Source: a virus. From it: 25,132 nucleotides of DNA. Position 1 is the first letter of the stretch. Every line of letters begins with the position of its first letter. Shown here one piece after another: positions 1,035-15,077 of this stretch. The translations under genes and the position numbers were made by a program. The stretch spans positions 1 through 25,132 of IMG/VR virus record IMGVR_UViG_3300031775_001255. One strand, given 5' to 3'. The notes below the pieces were generated by a model that saw nothing but the letters and a program-made list of their open reading frames with translations, had not been told where the DNA came from and searched no databases.

Positions 1035-1862
1035 ATGGAATCTCTGACAATAGGGGTCGTAGGCAATGGGTTCGTCGGAAGGGCGATGACAATGCTTAGG
1101 CCAAATGTAAATGTAAAGGTTTGGGACATAGACCCGACCAAGGTAGAACCACAGGGCATGTCGTTTAACGACTTCGTTATGGATAGTGGAATCATATTTA
1201 TTGCGGTCCCCACTCCAATGTCAGAAAATGGAGAATGTCACCTCGACATAGTCGAATCTGTTGTCTCTAGGATTAGATTAGTTGATAATCAGAAATGGAT
1301 AATACTAAGATCTACAGTTCCGCCTGGGACTTCTGAAAAATTAGGCATCTCATTTATGCCTGAATTCTTAACAGAAAGAAACTGGAAAGAGGATTTCATT
1401 AATTGCGAGCAATGGATACTCGGCACAGAAGACGATTCTCTTTTTGACCTTACTCAGAAAGTATTTCTCGCCTCTGACGTTAAAAATAAGAAGTTATTCA
1501 AATGCTCGATCAATGCTGCGGAGTTAATTAAATATACAAAGAATGTTTTCTTGTCCGTAAAGGTGTCTTACTTCAATGAGATTGAAGACTATTGCAGGCA
1601 AAAGGGGATTGATTATGAAGAAGTCAGATCCTTGGTTTCTGCCGATTCCAGAATCGGAGGAGGGCATACCTTAGTTCCTGGAATTGACGGGAAAAGAGGG
1701 TTTGGGGGAACGTGTTTCCCTAAAGATTGTCATGCTTTACTTCACGAGATGAAGAGATCTGGTGTAAATCCCTTTGTTATCCCCGCCTCCATTAGTCGAA
1801 ACGAATTAGTTGATCGTCCCGAAATGGATTGGCTCATCGATAAAGGGAGAGCATCTCTTTAA
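1035..1862 (+). CDS. Short UDP-glucose/GDP-mannose dehydrogenase-like protein
   Basis: 275 residues. The N-terminal NAD-binding Rossmann motif GVVGNGFVG lies at residues 8-15, with an acidic end to strand two (VWDID, 29-33). The central region has the family helix AELIKYTKN (162-170) and FLSVKVSYFNE (172-182), with Lys175 at the conserved lysine. The catalytic signature FGGTCFPKD is at 223-231, with Cys227 as the expected nucleophile. Family members usually run to about 390-450 residues and end in a UDP-binding domain. This protein stops about 45 residues after the catalytic Cys, so that domain is absent. It would oxidise a nucleotide sugar to a uronic acid if active. The stop overlaps the next ATG by one base (TAATG). 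No Shine-Dalgarno is visible at the start. Family call firm; activity uncertain because of the missing domain. Confidence 0.8.
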   Translation: MESLTIGVVGNGFVGRAMTMLRPNVNVKVWDIDPTKVEPQGMSFNDFVMDSGIIFIAVPTPMSENGECHLDIVESVVSRIRLVDNQKWIILRSTVPPGTSEKLGISFMPEFLTERNWKEDFINCEQWILGTEDDSLFDLTQKVFLASDVKNKKLFKCSINAAELIKYTKNVFLSVKVSYFNEIEDYCRQKGIDYEEVRSLVSADSRIGGGHTLVPGIDGKRGFGGTCFPKDCHALLHEMKRSGVNPFVIPASISRNELVDRPEMDWLIDKGRASL

Positions 1863-2350
1863 TGCGAAAAAAAAGACCTAAAATAAGAAGGAAGCCGAAC
1901 TGCTCTTGTTCGCTTTGCAAAAAGAGGATATACAGAAGGCCTTCTCAGTTGTTGGCTGGATTGGTATTTTGCAGTAGAGCATGCAATGGCAAATCCCAGA
2001 GGACAAATGAAAAAAAATGCCCAGAATGCGGCAAAGAATTTCTCGGTCAGGCAGGAGGGAATCAAAAAAATTGTTCAAGAAAATGCGCGGACAAGAGCCG
2101 GAAGGGAGCTAGATATAATTCAAAAAAAGGAAAAAATACTTCGGTTAGAGGCAACAAGTTAAAGGAGAGGTTGGCCAAACTAAGAGGGGCTCAATGCGAA
2201 AAATGCGAACACAAGAATTATAACATTCTTCAAGTTCACCACATTAAGCCTAAATCAGAGGGCGGGTCTAGCCTGAATGAAAATTTAATGCTTCTTTGTC
2301 CCAATTGCCACACAACAATACATTTGGGAGAGTGCGAATACAATGGATAA
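1862..2350 (+). CDS. HNH endonuclease with N-terminal zinc-finger pairs
   Basis: 162 residues, very basic N-terminus. Cysteine pairs at about 16/19, 37/41, 53/56 and 71/75 look like two zinc-binding ribbons. The C-terminal HNH core starts with CEKC (112-115), carries HH at 126-127 in QVHHIKP, an Asn in the SLNENLMLLC stretch, CPNCH (146-150) and His154. This is a beta-beta-alpha-metal nuclease fold with structural zinc, as in free-standing phage homing-type HNH enzymes. It would cut DNA. The target is unknown. It is coupled to the dehydrogenase by TAATG and overlaps the next gene by 8 bp. Its position between sugar genes and a DNA methyltransferase may mean either a mobile insertion or a companion to the methyltransferase. 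The family call is secure. Confidence 0.85.
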   Translation: MRKKRPKIRRKPNCSCSLCKKRIYRRPSQLLAGLVFCSRACNGKSQRTNEKKCPECGKEFLGQAGGNQKNCSRKCADKSRKGARYNSKKGKNTSVRGNKLKERLAKLRGAQCEKCEHKNYNILQVHHIKPKSEGGSSLNENLMLLCPNCHTTIHLGECEYNG

Positions 2351-2666
2351 AAAAACTTATTGCTTTGACCTAGACGATACTCTATGCTATATTAAGATAG
2401 GCGAAAAAACAGATTACATGTCATCATATCCTTACGAGTCTAGAATTAAAAAAGTCAACGAACTATACGAACAAGGGAATTTCATTATTATCGATACAGC
2501 AAGAGGTTCCGAAACAGGCATCAATTGGTTAGCCCGAACATATTCTCAGCTTATCGGCTGGGGGCTGAAGTTTCATAAACTTAGGTGTGGAATAAAACTT
2601 TCTGCGGATTATTATATTGACGACAAAGGTTTATCGGTGATAGACTACTTTAATGACGAACAATGA
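2343..2666 (+). CDS. Small HAD-superfamily phosphatase
   Basis: 107 residues. HAD motif I is FDLDDT (8-13), with Asp9 as nucleophile and Asp11 as acid/base. Motif II is the Thr in DTARG (51-55). A lysine for motif III is likely within 77-85, and motif IV is the DD pair at 93-94 in YIDDKG. There is no room for a cap domain, so it resembles the compact C0 sugar-phosphate or KDO8P phosphatase-like members often found in capsule or LPS gene sets. It would dephosphorylate a small phosphorylated metabolite, possibly a sugar phosphate given the neighbours. GGAGAG lies about 9 bp before the ATG. Its TGA stop overlaps the ATG of the alternative frame at 2663 by four bases, and it also overlaps the methyltransferase start at 2653. 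Superfamily firm; substrate unknown. Confidence 0.75.
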   Translation: MDKKTYCFDLDDTLCYIKIGEKTDYMSSYPYESRIKKVNELYEQGNFIIIDTARGSETGINWLARTYSQLIGWGLKFHKLRCGIKLSADYYIDDKGLSVIDYFNDEQ

Positions 2667-3726
2667 AGAGTCAACCAATATTCCTTCCATCATCCCTACT
2701 ATATCGCTTTGCACCGGATATTCCGGGATCGAAATTGGAATCGGAAAAGTGCTCGAAAATATTCGCTGCGTCGCTATGGTGGAGAGGGAAACCTTCCTCT
2801 GCTCCCTCCTTCTCTCGAAGATGGAAGAAGGATTGCTGGAGCCATGCCCTTTGTTCTCGGATGTTAATACCTTCCCGTGGGAAGAGTTTCGTCCAATCAT
2901 GGGTGAAGGAATTCTTACCTTTGGTTGGCCCTGCCAACCAGTCTCCAGTATCGGAAAAAGAGAAGGAGTCAAAGATGAAAGATGGCTCTTCGATATCATA
3001 TCAGACGGAGTTGAAATTATGCAACCGGGATGGCTCTTTGCAGAAAACGTCGAAGGACTGCTCTCTGCCAAAATGCCCGGAGGGGGGCTTGTTATTGGCC
3101 ACTGCATCGAAAGACTGGAAGAGTTGGATTATACAGTTGAGGTCGGAATATTTAGCGCGGAGGAAGTCTTCGCTCCTCATAGGAGGAAGCGTGTCTGGCT
3201 CTTGGCCCACCGCAAGGGTGTCAAGTGCGAATGGGCCATCACAGAAAGAGATAAACTTAGGGAATCCAAAGAGGAGATTGGAAGTGGAAGTTTTTTGTCA
3301 AACGAATGGCCATCAAGACCAAGAGACGCTCAAAACGAATGGGAAGAACCAAGAGTTGTCTTGGCCCACCCCAAGAGCCGGAAATCCGGGAAGCAGAAAA
3401 AAAAGCAAGGGGGGGAAGATTCTCAATCAGGAAGCGAAAAAATGGTCAACCCCTCAAGCCAGCGATCATGTGGGAACCTACAGACCGAAGGATGCGACCC
3501 TGAGGAGGGATCTGGGATCAAAGGGGAGAAGCGGAGTCCTGAATCCGAATTGGGTGGAGAGCCTAATGCTGAGCAGGTTCGTCAAGTCGGAGATTCCCTC
3601 TTTAATGTGGACCCAACTATCCGAAGACTGGAGCGCCTTAAAGCCCTTGGAAACGGAGTAATTCCGGACTGCGCAGCCAAAGCTTTTGTTTTTTTATTTA
3701 ATCGTTTAGCGGAGAGAGAGCAATGA
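2653..3726 (+). CDS. DNA cytosine-C5 methyltransferase (Dcm-like)
   Basis: 357 residues. Motif I (SAM binding) is SLCTGYSGIEIGIG at about 18-31. Motif IV is GWPCQP with catalytic Cys94. Motif VI is ENVEG at 131-135. Motif VIII is HRRKRVW at 176-182. A long variable target-recognition region follows. Motifs IX-X end in LKALGNGVIPDCAAKAF near 329-345. All core motifs are intact, so it should methylate cytosine at C5 in a specific DNA site, likely protecting phage DNA or competing with host restriction. The target-recognition region carries repeated L/M-A/V-H/N-P strings (LAHP, MVNP). The gene is richer in G+C than its neighbours (sampled lines at 2761 and 3481 are about 57-60 percent, against about 35 percent for a sampled nrdA line), suggesting separate acquisition or dual-coding constraint. 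A second frame is open through nearly its whole length. Confidence 0.9.
   Translation: MTNNEESTNIPSIIPTISLCTGYSGIEIGIGKVLENIRCVAMVERETFLCSLLLSKMEEGLLEPCPLFSDVNTFPWEEFRPIMGEGILTFGWPCQPVSSIGKREGVKDERWLFDIISDGVEIMQPGWLFAENVEGLLSAKMPGGGLVIGHCIERLEELDYTVEVGIFSAEEVFAPHRRKRVWLLAHRKGVKCEWAITERDKLRESKEEIGSGSFLSNEWPSRPRDAQNEWEEPRVVLAHPKSRKSGKQKKKQGGEDSQSGSEKMVNPSSQRSCGNLQTEGCDPEEGSGIKGEKRSPESELGGEPNAEQVRQVGDSLFNVDPTIRRLERLKALGNGVIPDCAAKAFVFLFNRLAEREQ
2663..3661 (+). CDS. Possible overlapping gene in the +1 frame of the C5 methyltransferase
   Basis: A 332-codon frame runs stop-free through almost the whole methyltransferase gene. Its ATG overlaps the HAD stop as ATGA, the same coupling used by real genes here. 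The predicted protein is Ser/Lys/Arg-rich, has no known domain that I can name, and contains three related tryptophan-proline strings: WPTA at 181, WPTPRA at 234 and WSTPQA at 261, followed by LNPNWVESLM at 293-302. I recall WPTPxA and LNPxWVExLM strings as recurrent in predicted proteins near phage C5 methyltransferases. They are read from the same bases as the LAHP/MVNP strings of the methyltransferase, so conservation of one frame would automatically create similarity in the other. The region is also G+C-rich and poor in stops on both strands. It could be a true overlapping gene or an echo of the methyltransferase frame. Confidence 0.35.
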   Translation: MKSQPIFLPSSLLYRFAPDIPGSKLESEKCSKIFAASLWWRGKPSSAPSFSRRWKKDCWSHALCSRMLIPSRGKSFVQSWVKEFLPLVGPANQSPVSEKEKESKMKDGSSISYQTELKLCNRDGSLQKTSKDCSLPKCPEGGLLLATASKDWKSWIIQLRSEYLARRKSSLLIGGSVSGSWPTARVSSANGPSQKEINLGNPKRRLEVEVFCQTNGHQDQETLKTNGKNQELSWPTPRAGNPGSRKKSKGGKILNQEAKKWSTPQASDHVGTYRPKDATLRRDLGSKGRSGVLNPNWVESLMLSRFVKSEIPSLMWTQLSEDWSALKPLETE

Positions 3727-8982: not shown

Positions 8983-10064
8983 TGAATAAAGAATTAGGAA
9001 TAGTATGTTGTTACTTCAATCCTTGCCATTTTGAAAGCAGGAAAGAAAACTTCATGCAGTTTTATAAAAACATTAAGTTTTGTACGGATGATATTTGCGT
9101 AGTTGAGTTGTCTTTCGGATCGGATGAATTTTCCTTGCCCGAAGAAATGGAAACGCTTAAAGTTAATTCAAGTTCGATACTTTGGCAAAAGGAAGCTCTG
9201 TTAAATATTGGGATTAAGAAGTTATTGTCTGAGGGTTATGAGAATATAGCTTGGTTCGACGCGGACATAGCTTTTGATAATACAATGTGGCATCAGGACA
9301 TTATTGATACATTGAAGCAATATAAAATCTGCCAAACCTTCGGAAAGGTGTGCAAATATAAATGGAAAAAAGTAAAGAACGGGGAAGTATACTCCGATAG
9401 ACTTTATCTGCATGGTTCCGCTAGATACTTCAAGGATACCGGCATGATATATTCCAAGAAAGGAGACTCCGGGTTTGGTTGGGCCGCTAGGTCGGAAGTT
9501 CTTGCTGAATGCAATTTGTTTGACAAAGGTATTATTGGGGGCGGAGACGCCTTGATCTGGTATGGCATGCATTATAATTCTCTCAATATAGCAGAGGCTT
9601 GCAATACCCACCCCGTTTTCACATATGATTTTCCGGATTATCGACTAGCTTATATAGATTGGTGTAAAAAATGGAGCAAGGCTGTAAACGGCAGTGTTGG
9701 TTACAGTTATACTTCTCTTCAAACAATGTACCACGGAAGCATTAAAGACAAAAAGTATACAGATCGTTATGATGTTTTAGTTAGGCATAAATATGATCCT
9801 TCGTCAGACATCAAATACTCAGATAGCGGAACGATTGAATGGGCCAATGACAAGTTAGAACTGCATAAAGAAGTTAGTTCTTATTTTGCCTCAAGAAACG
9901 AAGATGGGTTCTTAAAAGATAGCGGCAAAATAAAGAAACCAAAAGAAAAGAAAAAATGGTTCTTTCAGAGGTGGATAGAAAATGCTGACGCAGCTATTTC
10001 GGCTGAACTAGAAAAGGAAAACACAAAAATAAGAGCTTTAAAAGACTCTCAAGATGAATCATGA
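8982..10064 (+). CDS. GT-A type glycosyltransferase
   Basis: 360 residues from the ATG at 8982, preferred over the TTG one codon earlier because it is coupled to the upstream stop as TGATG. The first 230 residues look like a GT-A fold: an N-terminal strand GIVCCYFNP (6-14), KEALLNIGIKKL helix (70-81), and the metal-binding DxD as WFDADIAF (91-98, Asp93/Asp95). A later GIIGGGDALIW motif is the acceptor-side loop common in related phage enzymes. The last ~60 residues are highly charged (KKPKEKKK followed by a helical tail), perhaps for membrane or partner contact. It would transfer a hexose from a nucleotide sugar. It begins the glycan island, and its stop overlaps the neuB start by four bases (ATGA). 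Confidence 0.7.
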   Translation: MNKELGIVCCYFNPCHFESRKENFMQFYKNIKFCTDDICVVELSFGSDEFSLPEEMETLKVNSSSILWQKEALLNIGIKKLLSEGYENIAWFDADIAFDNTMWHQDIIDTLKQYKICQTFGKVCKYKWKKVKNGEVYSDRLYLHGSARYFKDTGMIYSKKGDSGFGWAARSEVLAECNLFDKGIIGGGDALIWYGMHYNSLNIAEACNTHPVFTYDFPDYRLAYIDWCKKWSKAVNGSVGYSYTSLQTMYHGSIKDKKYTDRYDVLVRHKYDPSSDIKYSDSGTIEWANDKLELHKEVSSYFASRNEDGFLKDSGKIKKPKEKKKWFFQRWIENADAAISAELEKENTKIRALKDSQDES

Positions 10065-10894
10065 AAACATACCTAATATCTGAAATTGGAATTAACCATA
10101 ACGGAAGCATGGATATAGCTAAAAAGCTTATTGATATTTCTGCTTTGGCTGGCTTTAATGCCGTTAAGTTCCAGAAAAGAAACCCAGATGTTTGCGTCCC
10201 CGAACACCAAAAAAATATCGAAAAAGATACCCCTTGGGGAACAATGACTTATTTGGAGTATAAATACAAAGTAGAATTCGAGAAGGAAGAATACGACGAG
10301 ATTGACGCTTATTGTAAGTCGAGAGGAATCGACTGGTCTGCCTCTCCCTGGGACGAGGACTCCATAGATTTTCTTTCCGATTATAAATTACCTTGGGTAA
10401 AGATAGCATCAGCTAGTATAACCGAAGAGGATGTGCTTCGTAAGTGCGCTAAGATTTTCCCAAAGATTATAATGTCCACCGGAATGAGTACGGAAGAAGA
10501 GATTGATAGGGCTGTTTCGGTTTTGGAGTCAGCCAACTGTGAATCGATTTGCATTCTTCATTGTAATTCTTCTTATCCTGCTCCGGCGGAAGATCTTAAT
10601 TTAAATTACATAAGAGAGTTAAAGAAAAAGTATCCCAAACACCAGATTGGATACAGTGGTCATGAGTATGGACTTACTTCCTCGATAGCATCTGTAGCTC
10701 TTGGGGCCGAAGTGGTGGAGCGTCACGTCACGTTAGACAAGTCTATGTGGGGTAGTGATCAATTATGTAGCGTAGAGCCCCACGGAATGTTTAAACTTGC
10801 CCGGGGAATCAAAGAACTTGAGTTGGCCTTGGGCGATGGGATCAAAGTTGTAACGGAAGACGAAAAGAAAAAACGCAAGACCCTAAGAAAGTAA
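10061..10894 (+). CDS. neuB: N-acetylneuraminate (nonulosonic acid) synthase, short form
   Basis: 277 residues forming the TIM-barrel domain of NeuB. SEIGINHNG is at 7-15, AVKFQKR at 34-40, IMSTGMST at 137-144, ILHCNSSYPAP at 165-175, GYSGHE at 197-202 and VERHVTLDK at 219-227. His201 and His222 have the 21-residue spacing of the two metal-binding histidines of the characterised meningococcal enzyme. It condenses phosphoenolpyruvate with an N-acyl sugar such as ManNAc to make a sialic-type acid. The usual C-terminal antifreeze-like (SAF) domain, about 60-70 residues, is missing; the protein ends in a lysine-rich tail. Sialic, legionaminic or pseudaminic acid cannot be told apart here. It is coupled by ATGA to the preceding glycosyltransferase and followed by neuA, as expected for the pathway. 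Confidence 0.9.
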   Translation: MKTYLISEIGINHNGSMDIAKKLIDISALAGFNAVKFQKRNPDVCVPEHQKNIEKDTPWGTMTYLEYKYKVEFEKEEYDEIDAYCKSRGIDWSASPWDEDSIDFLSDYKLPWVKIASASITEEDVLRKCAKIFPKIIMSTGMSTEEEIDRAVSVLESANCESICILHCNSSYPAPAEDLNLNYIRELKKKYPKHQIGYSGHEYGLTSSIASVALGAEVVERHVTLDKSMWGSDQLCSVEPHGMFKLARGIKELELALGDGIKVVTEDEKKKRKTLRK

Positions 10895-10912
10895 AACGGG
10901 GCATACTTAACG

Positions 10913-11644
10913 ATGAATGTCTTGGCCATTATACCCGCAAGAAGCGGAAGTAAAAGTATCAGGCATAAGAACCTCGAAAAGGTCGGCGGCAAATCTTTAT
11001 TAGAGCTTTCCATCAGCCATGCTCTAGAGTCTAGTTTAGTTAATAGGGTTATTGTTAGTACAGATAGCAAGGAGTACGGAAAGGTGGCGACCCAAGCCGG
11101 GGCAGACGTGCCCTTTCTTCGACCCGAGGAAATCAGCGGGGATTGTTCTTCGGATTTTGAATGTTTTGATCATTGCTTAAGAGCATTAAGGCGGGATGAT
11201 TCTTATTTTCCGGATATTTGTGTGCATTTAAGACCGACTTCTCCCCACCGGTCAGTTGAAATTATGGATAAAATGATTAAATTTCTTATGGAGAATGATG
11301 ATTATGATAGCTGCAGGACGGTAGAGAAAGTCTTGCACCCTCCGTTTAAAATGTGGTACATGGATGGGAACAAAGACCTTACGCCTATTGTTCCTAAGGT
11401 CAGGACGCTTAAGTATTCCATGGAAAACGTATATGAACCATGGAATCAGCAGACGGAACTTTTACCAAGTGCTTACCTTCATAATGGAAATATTGACGTT
11501 GTGAGATCCTCTGTGATTATGGACAAAAAATCCATGTCAGGCTCTAAAATAAAGGGTTTCCTGATGGAGCATAGTGTAAATATAGATAGTAGGGAAGAAT
11601 TGAAAGAGGCCCAAGAGAAAGAAAATGATAAGTCACGAACATAA
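10913..11644 (+). CDS. neuA: CMP-N-acylneuraminate cytidylyltransferase
   Basis: 243 residues. The N-terminal nucleotide-binding signature IIPARSGSKSIRHKN (6-20) with Arg10, Lys14 and Asn20 is characteristic of CMP-sialic acid and CMP-KDO synthetases. VIVSTDSKEY and the HLRPTSPHRS stretch (about 107-116) match further family motifs, and the C-terminal part has YLHNGNIDVV. It activates the nonulosonic acid made by NeuB to its CMP form, the donor for sialyltransferases. It lies 18 bp after neuB. Its last six codons (KSRT and preceding ND) lie inside a 20-bp sequence that is also the first 20 bases of the next gene and recurs exactly at 12416, so both the end of this protein and the start of the next appear to have been laid down by one recombination event. 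Confidence 0.92.
   Translation: MNVLAIIPARSGSKSIRHKNLEKVGGKSLLELSISHALESSLVNRVIVSTDSKEYGKVATQAGADVPFLRPEEISGDCSSDFECFDHCLRALRRDDSYFPDICVHLRPTSPHRSVEIMDKMIKFLMENDDYDSCRTVEKVLHPPFKMWYMDGNKDLTPIVPKVRTLKYSMENVYEPWNQQTELLPSAYLHNGNIDVVRSSVIMDKKSMSGSKIKGFLMEHSVNIDSREELKEAQEKENDKSRT
11625..11644 (+). repeat. 20-bp exact repeat, copy 1 (neuA/GT8 junction)
   Basis: These 20 bases are identical to 12416-12435. They are the whole overlap between the neuA end and the start of the GT8 gene, encoding MISHEHK in the downstream frame. A third, 17/20 version starts the third sulfotransferase at 13653. The GT8 paralogue at 15718 lacks it. Confidence 0.9.
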
Positions 11645-14468: not shown

Positions 14469-15077
14469 ATGTTAGACGTAAGCAAAAGTTTAGTTCTTGT
14501 AGGTAATGGTCCTTCTATGGTCGGGTCTAGTCTTGGGGAGACAATTGATGGTTTTGATTACGTAGTTCGTTTTGGTGATCCTGTGATTAAAGGTTTTGAG
14601 GAGGACGTTGGTAAAAAGTTTAACATATGGGCTCGCAACTCTTCTTGTAATGAATTTTCCTACAACGATGTATTAAGTAAGACTTCTGATCTGGTTTGTG
14701 AGATATCTGTAAACTCGGTCCGAGCAATTTGCGAAGGTGACTCTTGCGTTGCTCCGTCTAAGTATCTTATGATGTTTCCTGGTTCTGAGTTTGTTTTGGG
14801 TGTTAACGAATTACTTACCGAGTACAATTCTTCATTCAATATTTCTTCTCCGTGGAGTCGTAAAAAAACTAAGTGGGCTTCTACTGGTGTTATAACAGTC
14901 TGGTTTTTATTAGACGTTGTCGGTTTTCATAAAGTTAGCGTTTGTGGCTTTGACAATTTTTCTGGAAAGCATCAGCACTATTACGATAAGACAAAAGTCA
15001 GAAGTCATCATGACGGGTCTGCAGAGGCTAATTTTATAAAAGCTTTAATAACTAACAACAAAATTAACACCTTATGA
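14469..15077 (+). CDS. GT29-like sialyltransferase 1
   Basis: 202 residues. Sialylmotif-L-like block: VLVGNGPSMVGSSLGE then IDGFDYVVRFG (9-36). Sialylmotif-S-like block: ASTGVITVWFLLDV and VSVCGFDNF (137-164). The very small motif HxxxxE is His181 to Glu186. This order and spacing match GT29 (eukaryotic-type) sialyltransferases in compact form. It is 150 residues shorter than animal enzymes because the N-terminal anchor and stem are absent. It would transfer a nonulosonic acid from CMP, made by NeuB and NeuA upstream. Codons favour T in third position (GTT, TCT, GGT) more than nrdA does, hinting at a separate origin. Overlaps the next gene by ATGA. Acceptor unknown. Confidence 0.72.
   Translation: MLDVSKSLVLVGNGPSMVGSSLGETIDGFDYVVRFGDPVIKGFEEDVGKKFNIWARNSSCNEFSYNDVLSKTSDLVCEISVNSVRAICEGDSCVAPSKYLMMFPGSEFVLGVNELLTEYNSSFNISSPWSRKKTKWASTGVITVWFLLDVVGFHKVSVCGFDNFSGKHQHYYDKTKVRSHHDGSAEANFIKALITNNKINTL

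Follow-up and report, generated by a model that had tools for sequence, protein, structure and literature searches.

A +1-frame gene overlapping a phage C5 cytosine methyltransferase gene is conserved among relatives and probably encodes a second polypeptide of the enzyme

The window analyzed in this work, a stretch of 25,132 nucleotides covering positions 1 to 25,132 of the IMG/VR virus record IMGVR_UViG_3300031775_001255, contains a methyltransferase gene that is open in two reading frames, and, as judged by comparison with its relatives, the second of these frames is a real gene. With a probability of about 0.9, one DNA stretch encodes here two polypeptides of a single C5 cytosine methyltransferase of the M.EcoHK31I/M.AquI type. 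The existence of two-polypeptide C5 enzymes is established by M.AquI and M.EcoHK31I (PMC3404938), and the split between motif VIII and the recognition domain is known to be the boundary of two structural domains, the C-terminal helix folding into the large one (PMC5944983). In the proposed scheme, frame 0 (alpha) would supply the large catalytic domain with motifs I-VIII and also motif X, packing back onto this domain, and frame +1 (beta), starting about 10 nt downstream, would supply the small domain with W-x-T-P recognition modules and motif IX. The two chains, presumably translated separately, would assemble into one enzyme marking the phage DNA and protecting it against restriction, with the W-x-T-P modules acting as target-recognition units.

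The features of the locus are listed in Table 1. The first-pass annotation had described the +1 frame as open for 999 bases from position 2663, which was confirmed: beta runs from ATG to TAG through 332 codons, +1 relative to alpha. The described overlap with the upstream HAD-like ORF is also present, the stop of the latter (TGA, 2664-2666) being overlapped by the ATGA of beta. The three WPTP-type strings and LNPNWVESLM ascribed to the product are all present (WPTA, WPTP and WSTP at residues 181, 234 and 261, LNPNWVESLM at 293-302), with the literal WPTP found in one string only. Over these modules alpha reads LAHR, LAHP and MVNP, and the sharing of bases pointed out earlier is real, WPTP lying over LAHP and WSTP over MVNP. 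Motif X of alpha partially overlaps the end of beta. An HNH endonuclease ORF (window 1862-2350; PF01844, E 6e-11) is located shortly 5' of the HAD-like ORF and the methyltransferase. Elsewhere in the window, two adjoining ORFs (10061-11644) resemble N-acetylneuraminate synthase and CMP-sugar synthetase, as judged by eye from their translations, and sialyltransferase-like ORFs at 14469, 16496 and 20398 (also by eye) lie amid many glycosyltransferase- and sulfotransferase-like ORFs.

Table 1. Features of the overlapping methyltransferase locus (positions in the window)
Feature	Position	Strand	Evidence
HAD-like ORF, upstream; stop overlaps beta start	2343..2666	+	PHROG_1238 E 4e-20; PHROG_415 polynucleotide kinase E 1e-4
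alpha: C5 cytosine methyltransferase, 357 aa, motifs I-VIII and X, without in-frame motif IX	2653..3726	+	PF00145, PHROG_363
beta: overlapping +1-frame gene, 332 aa, putative recognition modules and motif IX	2663..3661	+	PHROG_1008; profile matches
Twin starts: alpha ATG 2653, beta ATG 2663, 10 nt between	2653..2666	+	
alpha catalytic domain, motifs I-VIII	2704..3210	+	constraint in relatives
beta W-x-T-P modules: WPTA 3203, WPTP 3362, WSTP 3443	3203..3454	+	
beta motif IX LNPNWVESLM ... EDWSALKPLE	3539..3652	+	profile 15.1 bits; alignments
alpha motif X RRLERLKALGNGVIPDCAAKAF	3622..3690	+	42.5 bits

An open second frame of this length is hardly expected by chance. When the gene's own codons were permuted synonymously, the interval 2663-3658 stayed open in 1 of 20,000 recodings (mean of 6.0 stops), and this test is conservative, because the second frame may already have influenced which codons the gene uses; upon recoding with the codon usage of the neighbouring genes, it was open in none of 20,000 (mean of 18.7 stops, minimum 6). 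Three W[PSA]T[PA] strings did not arise in any recoding of either kind. In the actual gene, 17 stops interrupt the +2 frame.

Alpha carries SLCTG, PCQP, ENV and HRRKR, i.e., motifs I, IV (PCQ), VI (ENV) and VIII in one chain. It is matched by PHROG_363 (E 1.9e-35), and by PF00145 (E 3.8e-24) over residues 16-207 only, corresponding to profile positions 3-182 of 324. Motif X, as expected of a C5 enzyme, resides in alpha; motif IX, expected in the same chain as motifs I-VIII, is encoded in the window solely by the +1 frame. In the family, the +1 product has this motif in the form LNPxWVEWLMGxPxGWT, which is absent from the methyltransferase frame. Residues 90-198 of the window beta match PHROG_1008 (E 3.9e-7), a phage family labelled DNA methyltransferase that was also matched by all ten beta proteins tried in the first set; the label does not convey that the matching protein is encoded in +1 relative to a C5 methyltransferase. 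A Pfam search assigned beta to no family, and the beta profile matched none of the solved structures. AlphaFold models of beta were weak (mean pLDDT 58), being confident solely at about residues 24-88 and 148-170 and in the LNP helix, with the N-terminal part predicted to be helical.

Relatives were collected as 80 viral contigs fetched by a beta pattern and 80 fetched by alpha patterns, the loci fetched by alpha alone constituting a set not chosen on beta. Scans of viral contigs with single alpha or beta proteins gave no match, and alignments were required; the profile of beta, in turn, has a +1-frame match in almost every alpha homologue. In the alpha-fetched set, 67 of the 74 scored loci lack +1 stops from motif VIII to motif X and 68 lack frame-0 stops, while the +2 frame is interrupted in every one. 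For all scored unique loci the respective counts are 127, 123 and 0 out of 134, with 79 stops in 11 loci for frame 0, 11 stops in 7 loci for +1 and 995 stops, spread over 134/134 loci, for +2. The loci with beta stops are five whose motifs IX and X are both encoded by frame 0, together with L162 and L161; those with alpha stops include all five loci having motif X in +1, and in 10/134 loci alpha is broken with beta open. Second-frame stops accompanied by an intact methyltransferase frame, the pattern that the first-pass annotation had named as counting against a second gene, were found in only 6/134 loci and are thus rare: five of these have IX and X in the alpha frame, and the sixth, L162, has IX in the alpha frame and X in the third one.

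The overlap arrangement is seen in related genes of phages and bacteria, numbering well above a hundred. Phage C75C1 shows the same layout, with a 480-aa methyltransferase and a 459-aa +1 ORF ending in LNPNWVEQLMGLPTGWTALDYSEME, and so do other loci fetched alongside. Phages Hades and HB10c2, meant as single-frame controls, were rejected as such, since both carry the overlap, and L203, considered as beta without alpha, was rejected upon finding that it holds an alpha-frame fragment with motif X. Two tandem alpha/beta pairs are present in L088 (133-1952). In the deposited record of L009 (2360-2953), it is the beta frame that is annotated as methyltransferase, the overlying alpha frame being unannotated. 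Our literature search, in which few subscription papers were covered, returned no prior account of such a layout across phages.

Short profiles of motifs IX and X placed both motifs in 139 unique loci. Motif IX was located in +1 and motif X in frame 0 in 122 of them; both motifs were in +1 in five loci, both in frame 0 in another five, and seven were of other types or unscored. Among bacterial genome contigs, 75/80 loci are arranged like the window, and 2/80 have both motifs in +1. Cultured phages cover all three types (Hades and HB10c2, IX in +1 and X in 0; Upyo, both in +1; Papez, both in frame 0). Most scored loci give one IX and one X across the two frames; L005 and L077 give two IX matches, those of L005 (2071-2281) being both strong, in +1 and separated by 210 nt, which suggests a duplication of the end of beta. 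L149, L161, L162 and L088 stand outside the main motif patterns. In L015, L027, L031, L032 and L044, alpha stops after motif VIII, and both IX and X are in beta; since alpha lacks IX and X in these loci, a complete enzyme needs both frames.

The motif profile built on beta only also recognizes a frame-0 motif IX just 5' of X in L143, L151, L157, L160, L163 and Mycobacterium phage Papez. The phage C5 methyltransferases of Papez and L160, whose main frame encodes IX and X, possess the same motifs; unlike the window, they have all of them in a single frame, and their +1 frame is interrupted. In L143, L151, L157 and L163, which also have IX and X in frame 0, a shorter +1 ORF of 163-183 codons (stop to stop) is nevertheless present, and reading of the alignments showed TPTA/LPTP-type strings without motif IX in that of L143 and L157. 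Three loci (L040, L138 and L141) have 13 to 17 alpha stops between VIII and X, with beta open and X in frame 0; this pattern is unexplained by the simple two-chain scheme and possibly represents a three-piece enzyme or a decaying alpha.

It could be argued that beta, though genuine as a protein, serves a different purpose, e.g., as a regulator or an antirestriction protein, and overlaps the methyltransferase by chance; the W-x-T-P modules without an assigned fold, as well as the predicted helical N-terminal part, would suit such a protein. We consider this highly improbable, as beta has motif IX in nearly all loci whose alpha lacks it and motif X in the five loci whose alpha lacks X.

Another explanation is programmed frameshifting, in which ribosomes would move from frame 0 into +1 once motif VIII has been translated and return to frame 0 to read motif X, joining alpha and beta in a single chain. 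The order of elements in the DNA (I-VIII, recognition modules, IX, X) is indeed that of a single-chain enzyme, and a single shift would be enough in the five AquI-like loci; in most loci, however, two shifts would be needed. Besides, the open stretch of beta, with hardly any change that creates a stop, reaches back almost to the start of alpha, and the first ATG of beta recurs at particular positions (32 nt 5' of the serine codon of motif I in 29 loci, 8 nt in 9); a frameshift located after VIII would not call for this. Considering also that two-polypeptide C5 enzymes are already known (PMC3404938), frameshifting appears quite improbable. In the window, the beta ATG is 41 nt 5' of the motif I serine codon and 10 nt 3' of the alpha ATG, and in a smaller group of loci the beta start lies inside alpha. 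From these positions we infer that beta is initiated separately, near the start of alpha.

Selection on the second frame, which the first-pass annotation had considered worth testing, was measured directly in 41 disjoint nucleotide-aligned pairs formed by relatives alone (the nearest alpha relative of the window, L013, is 54% identical); changes were sorted into four classes, depending on whether they were synonymous in each of the two frames. From VIII to X, selection is much stronger on the +1 frame than on alpha, with omega of 0.09 (0.07-0.12) for beta and 0.45 (0.31-0.64) for alpha over the 41 pairs. Differences at alpha codon positions 1, 2 and 3 amount in this region to 0.257, 0.095 and 0.089, so that variation peaks at alpha position 1, the third position of beta codons. 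Over motifs I-VIII, omega is 0.09-0.10 for alpha and 0.49-0.83 for beta, the amino acids of which are weakly constrained there; from motif X onward, alpha has omega of 0.02. From motif I through X, hardly any change creates a stop in beta, while the control +2 frame accepts stops and gives omega of 1.7-3.9 where computable. The second frame in the relatives is a conserved gene.

These data bear on the simplest alternative, also raised in the first-pass annotation, namely that only alpha is coding and its conservation merely projects into the other frame. Alpha does clearly dominate over motifs I-VIII, but the region from VIII to X is conserved in +1 and relaxed in alpha, varies most at alpha position 1 (beta position 3), and is free of stop-creating changes in +1, which +2 accepts; moreover, the alpha frame of L141 is interrupted over a W-x-T-P module at which beta is open. 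Projection is thus contradicted and its probability is practically negligible. At the level of sequence, the coding status of both frames in relatives, the partition of motifs and the domain-wise split of constraint are established, and the map of selection follows the two structural domains. The middle of alpha, the repeats of which the first-pass annotation found hard to explain, is mostly a shadow of beta, and its LAHP/MVNP strings are the imprint of the W-x-T-P modules. Judged by where it lies, by its motif IX and by the way its modules vary, beta most likely encodes the half of the enzyme that recognizes DNA.

The relatives have from 0 to 6 W-x-T-P-like strings per beta. The window module at 3359-3478 matches that of L086 with 63% identity in the beta frame, and the two modules differ by 0.70, 0.30 and 0.15 at beta positions 3, 1 and 2, respectively, in an alignment that was beta-guided and leans that way. 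As the alpha of L086 is only 26% identical to that of the window, the module may have been exchanged between the two lineages, convergence being the alternative. Motif IX of the window is at the low end of the family by its score, with about 15 extra residues after LNPNWVESLM. The window copy might accordingly be decaying, i.e., beta would be real in the family and the function of motif IX lost here, which is compatible with the two-polypeptide explanation. The extra residues do split the motif, and G-x-P-x-G-W is not intact; however, 332 codons are free of stops, both frames remain open through the insertion, and another module of the window is well conserved, making decay rather unlikely.

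The gene for the small chain of M.EcoHK31I is nested inside that for the large chain, in another frame. The window pair resembles this enzyme in having motifs I-VIII and X in the larger chain and IX, albeit weak in the window (15.1 bits), in the smaller one (PMC3404938), a likeness of motif layout. It differs in the extent of beta, which begins no more than 10 nt from the alpha start and covers almost the whole of alpha, and also in that the recognition domain of M.EcoHK31I was assigned to the larger chain (PMC3404938), while selection points here to beta. M.AquI, divided within its variable region, has both IX and X in the second chain, as do L015, L027, L031, L032, L044 and L176; unlike it, the window keeps X in alpha, the placement of both motifs in the small chain being found in 5/139 loci. 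A long second-frame overlap in M.AquI is not described in PMC3404938.

Generalizing with moderate confidence, we propose a widespread class of phage C5 methyltransferases made of two nearly co-extensive genes in different frames, each strongly constrained only over its own domain, in which W-x-T-P units would be exchangeable recognition cassettes of variable number, motifs IX and X would have moved between frames in several lineages, and the middle of alpha would be largely filler. Long same-strand overlaps have rarely been established in double-stranded DNA phages, and the present one is long, common and measurable. It accounts for the unusual repeats of low complexity seen in this class of phage methyltransferases and suggests that records annotated in a single frame miss half of the enzyme; codon-optimised expression from one annotated frame would destroy the other half. 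The family offers a natural set for studying the shared selection of two frames and the exchange of recognition modules.
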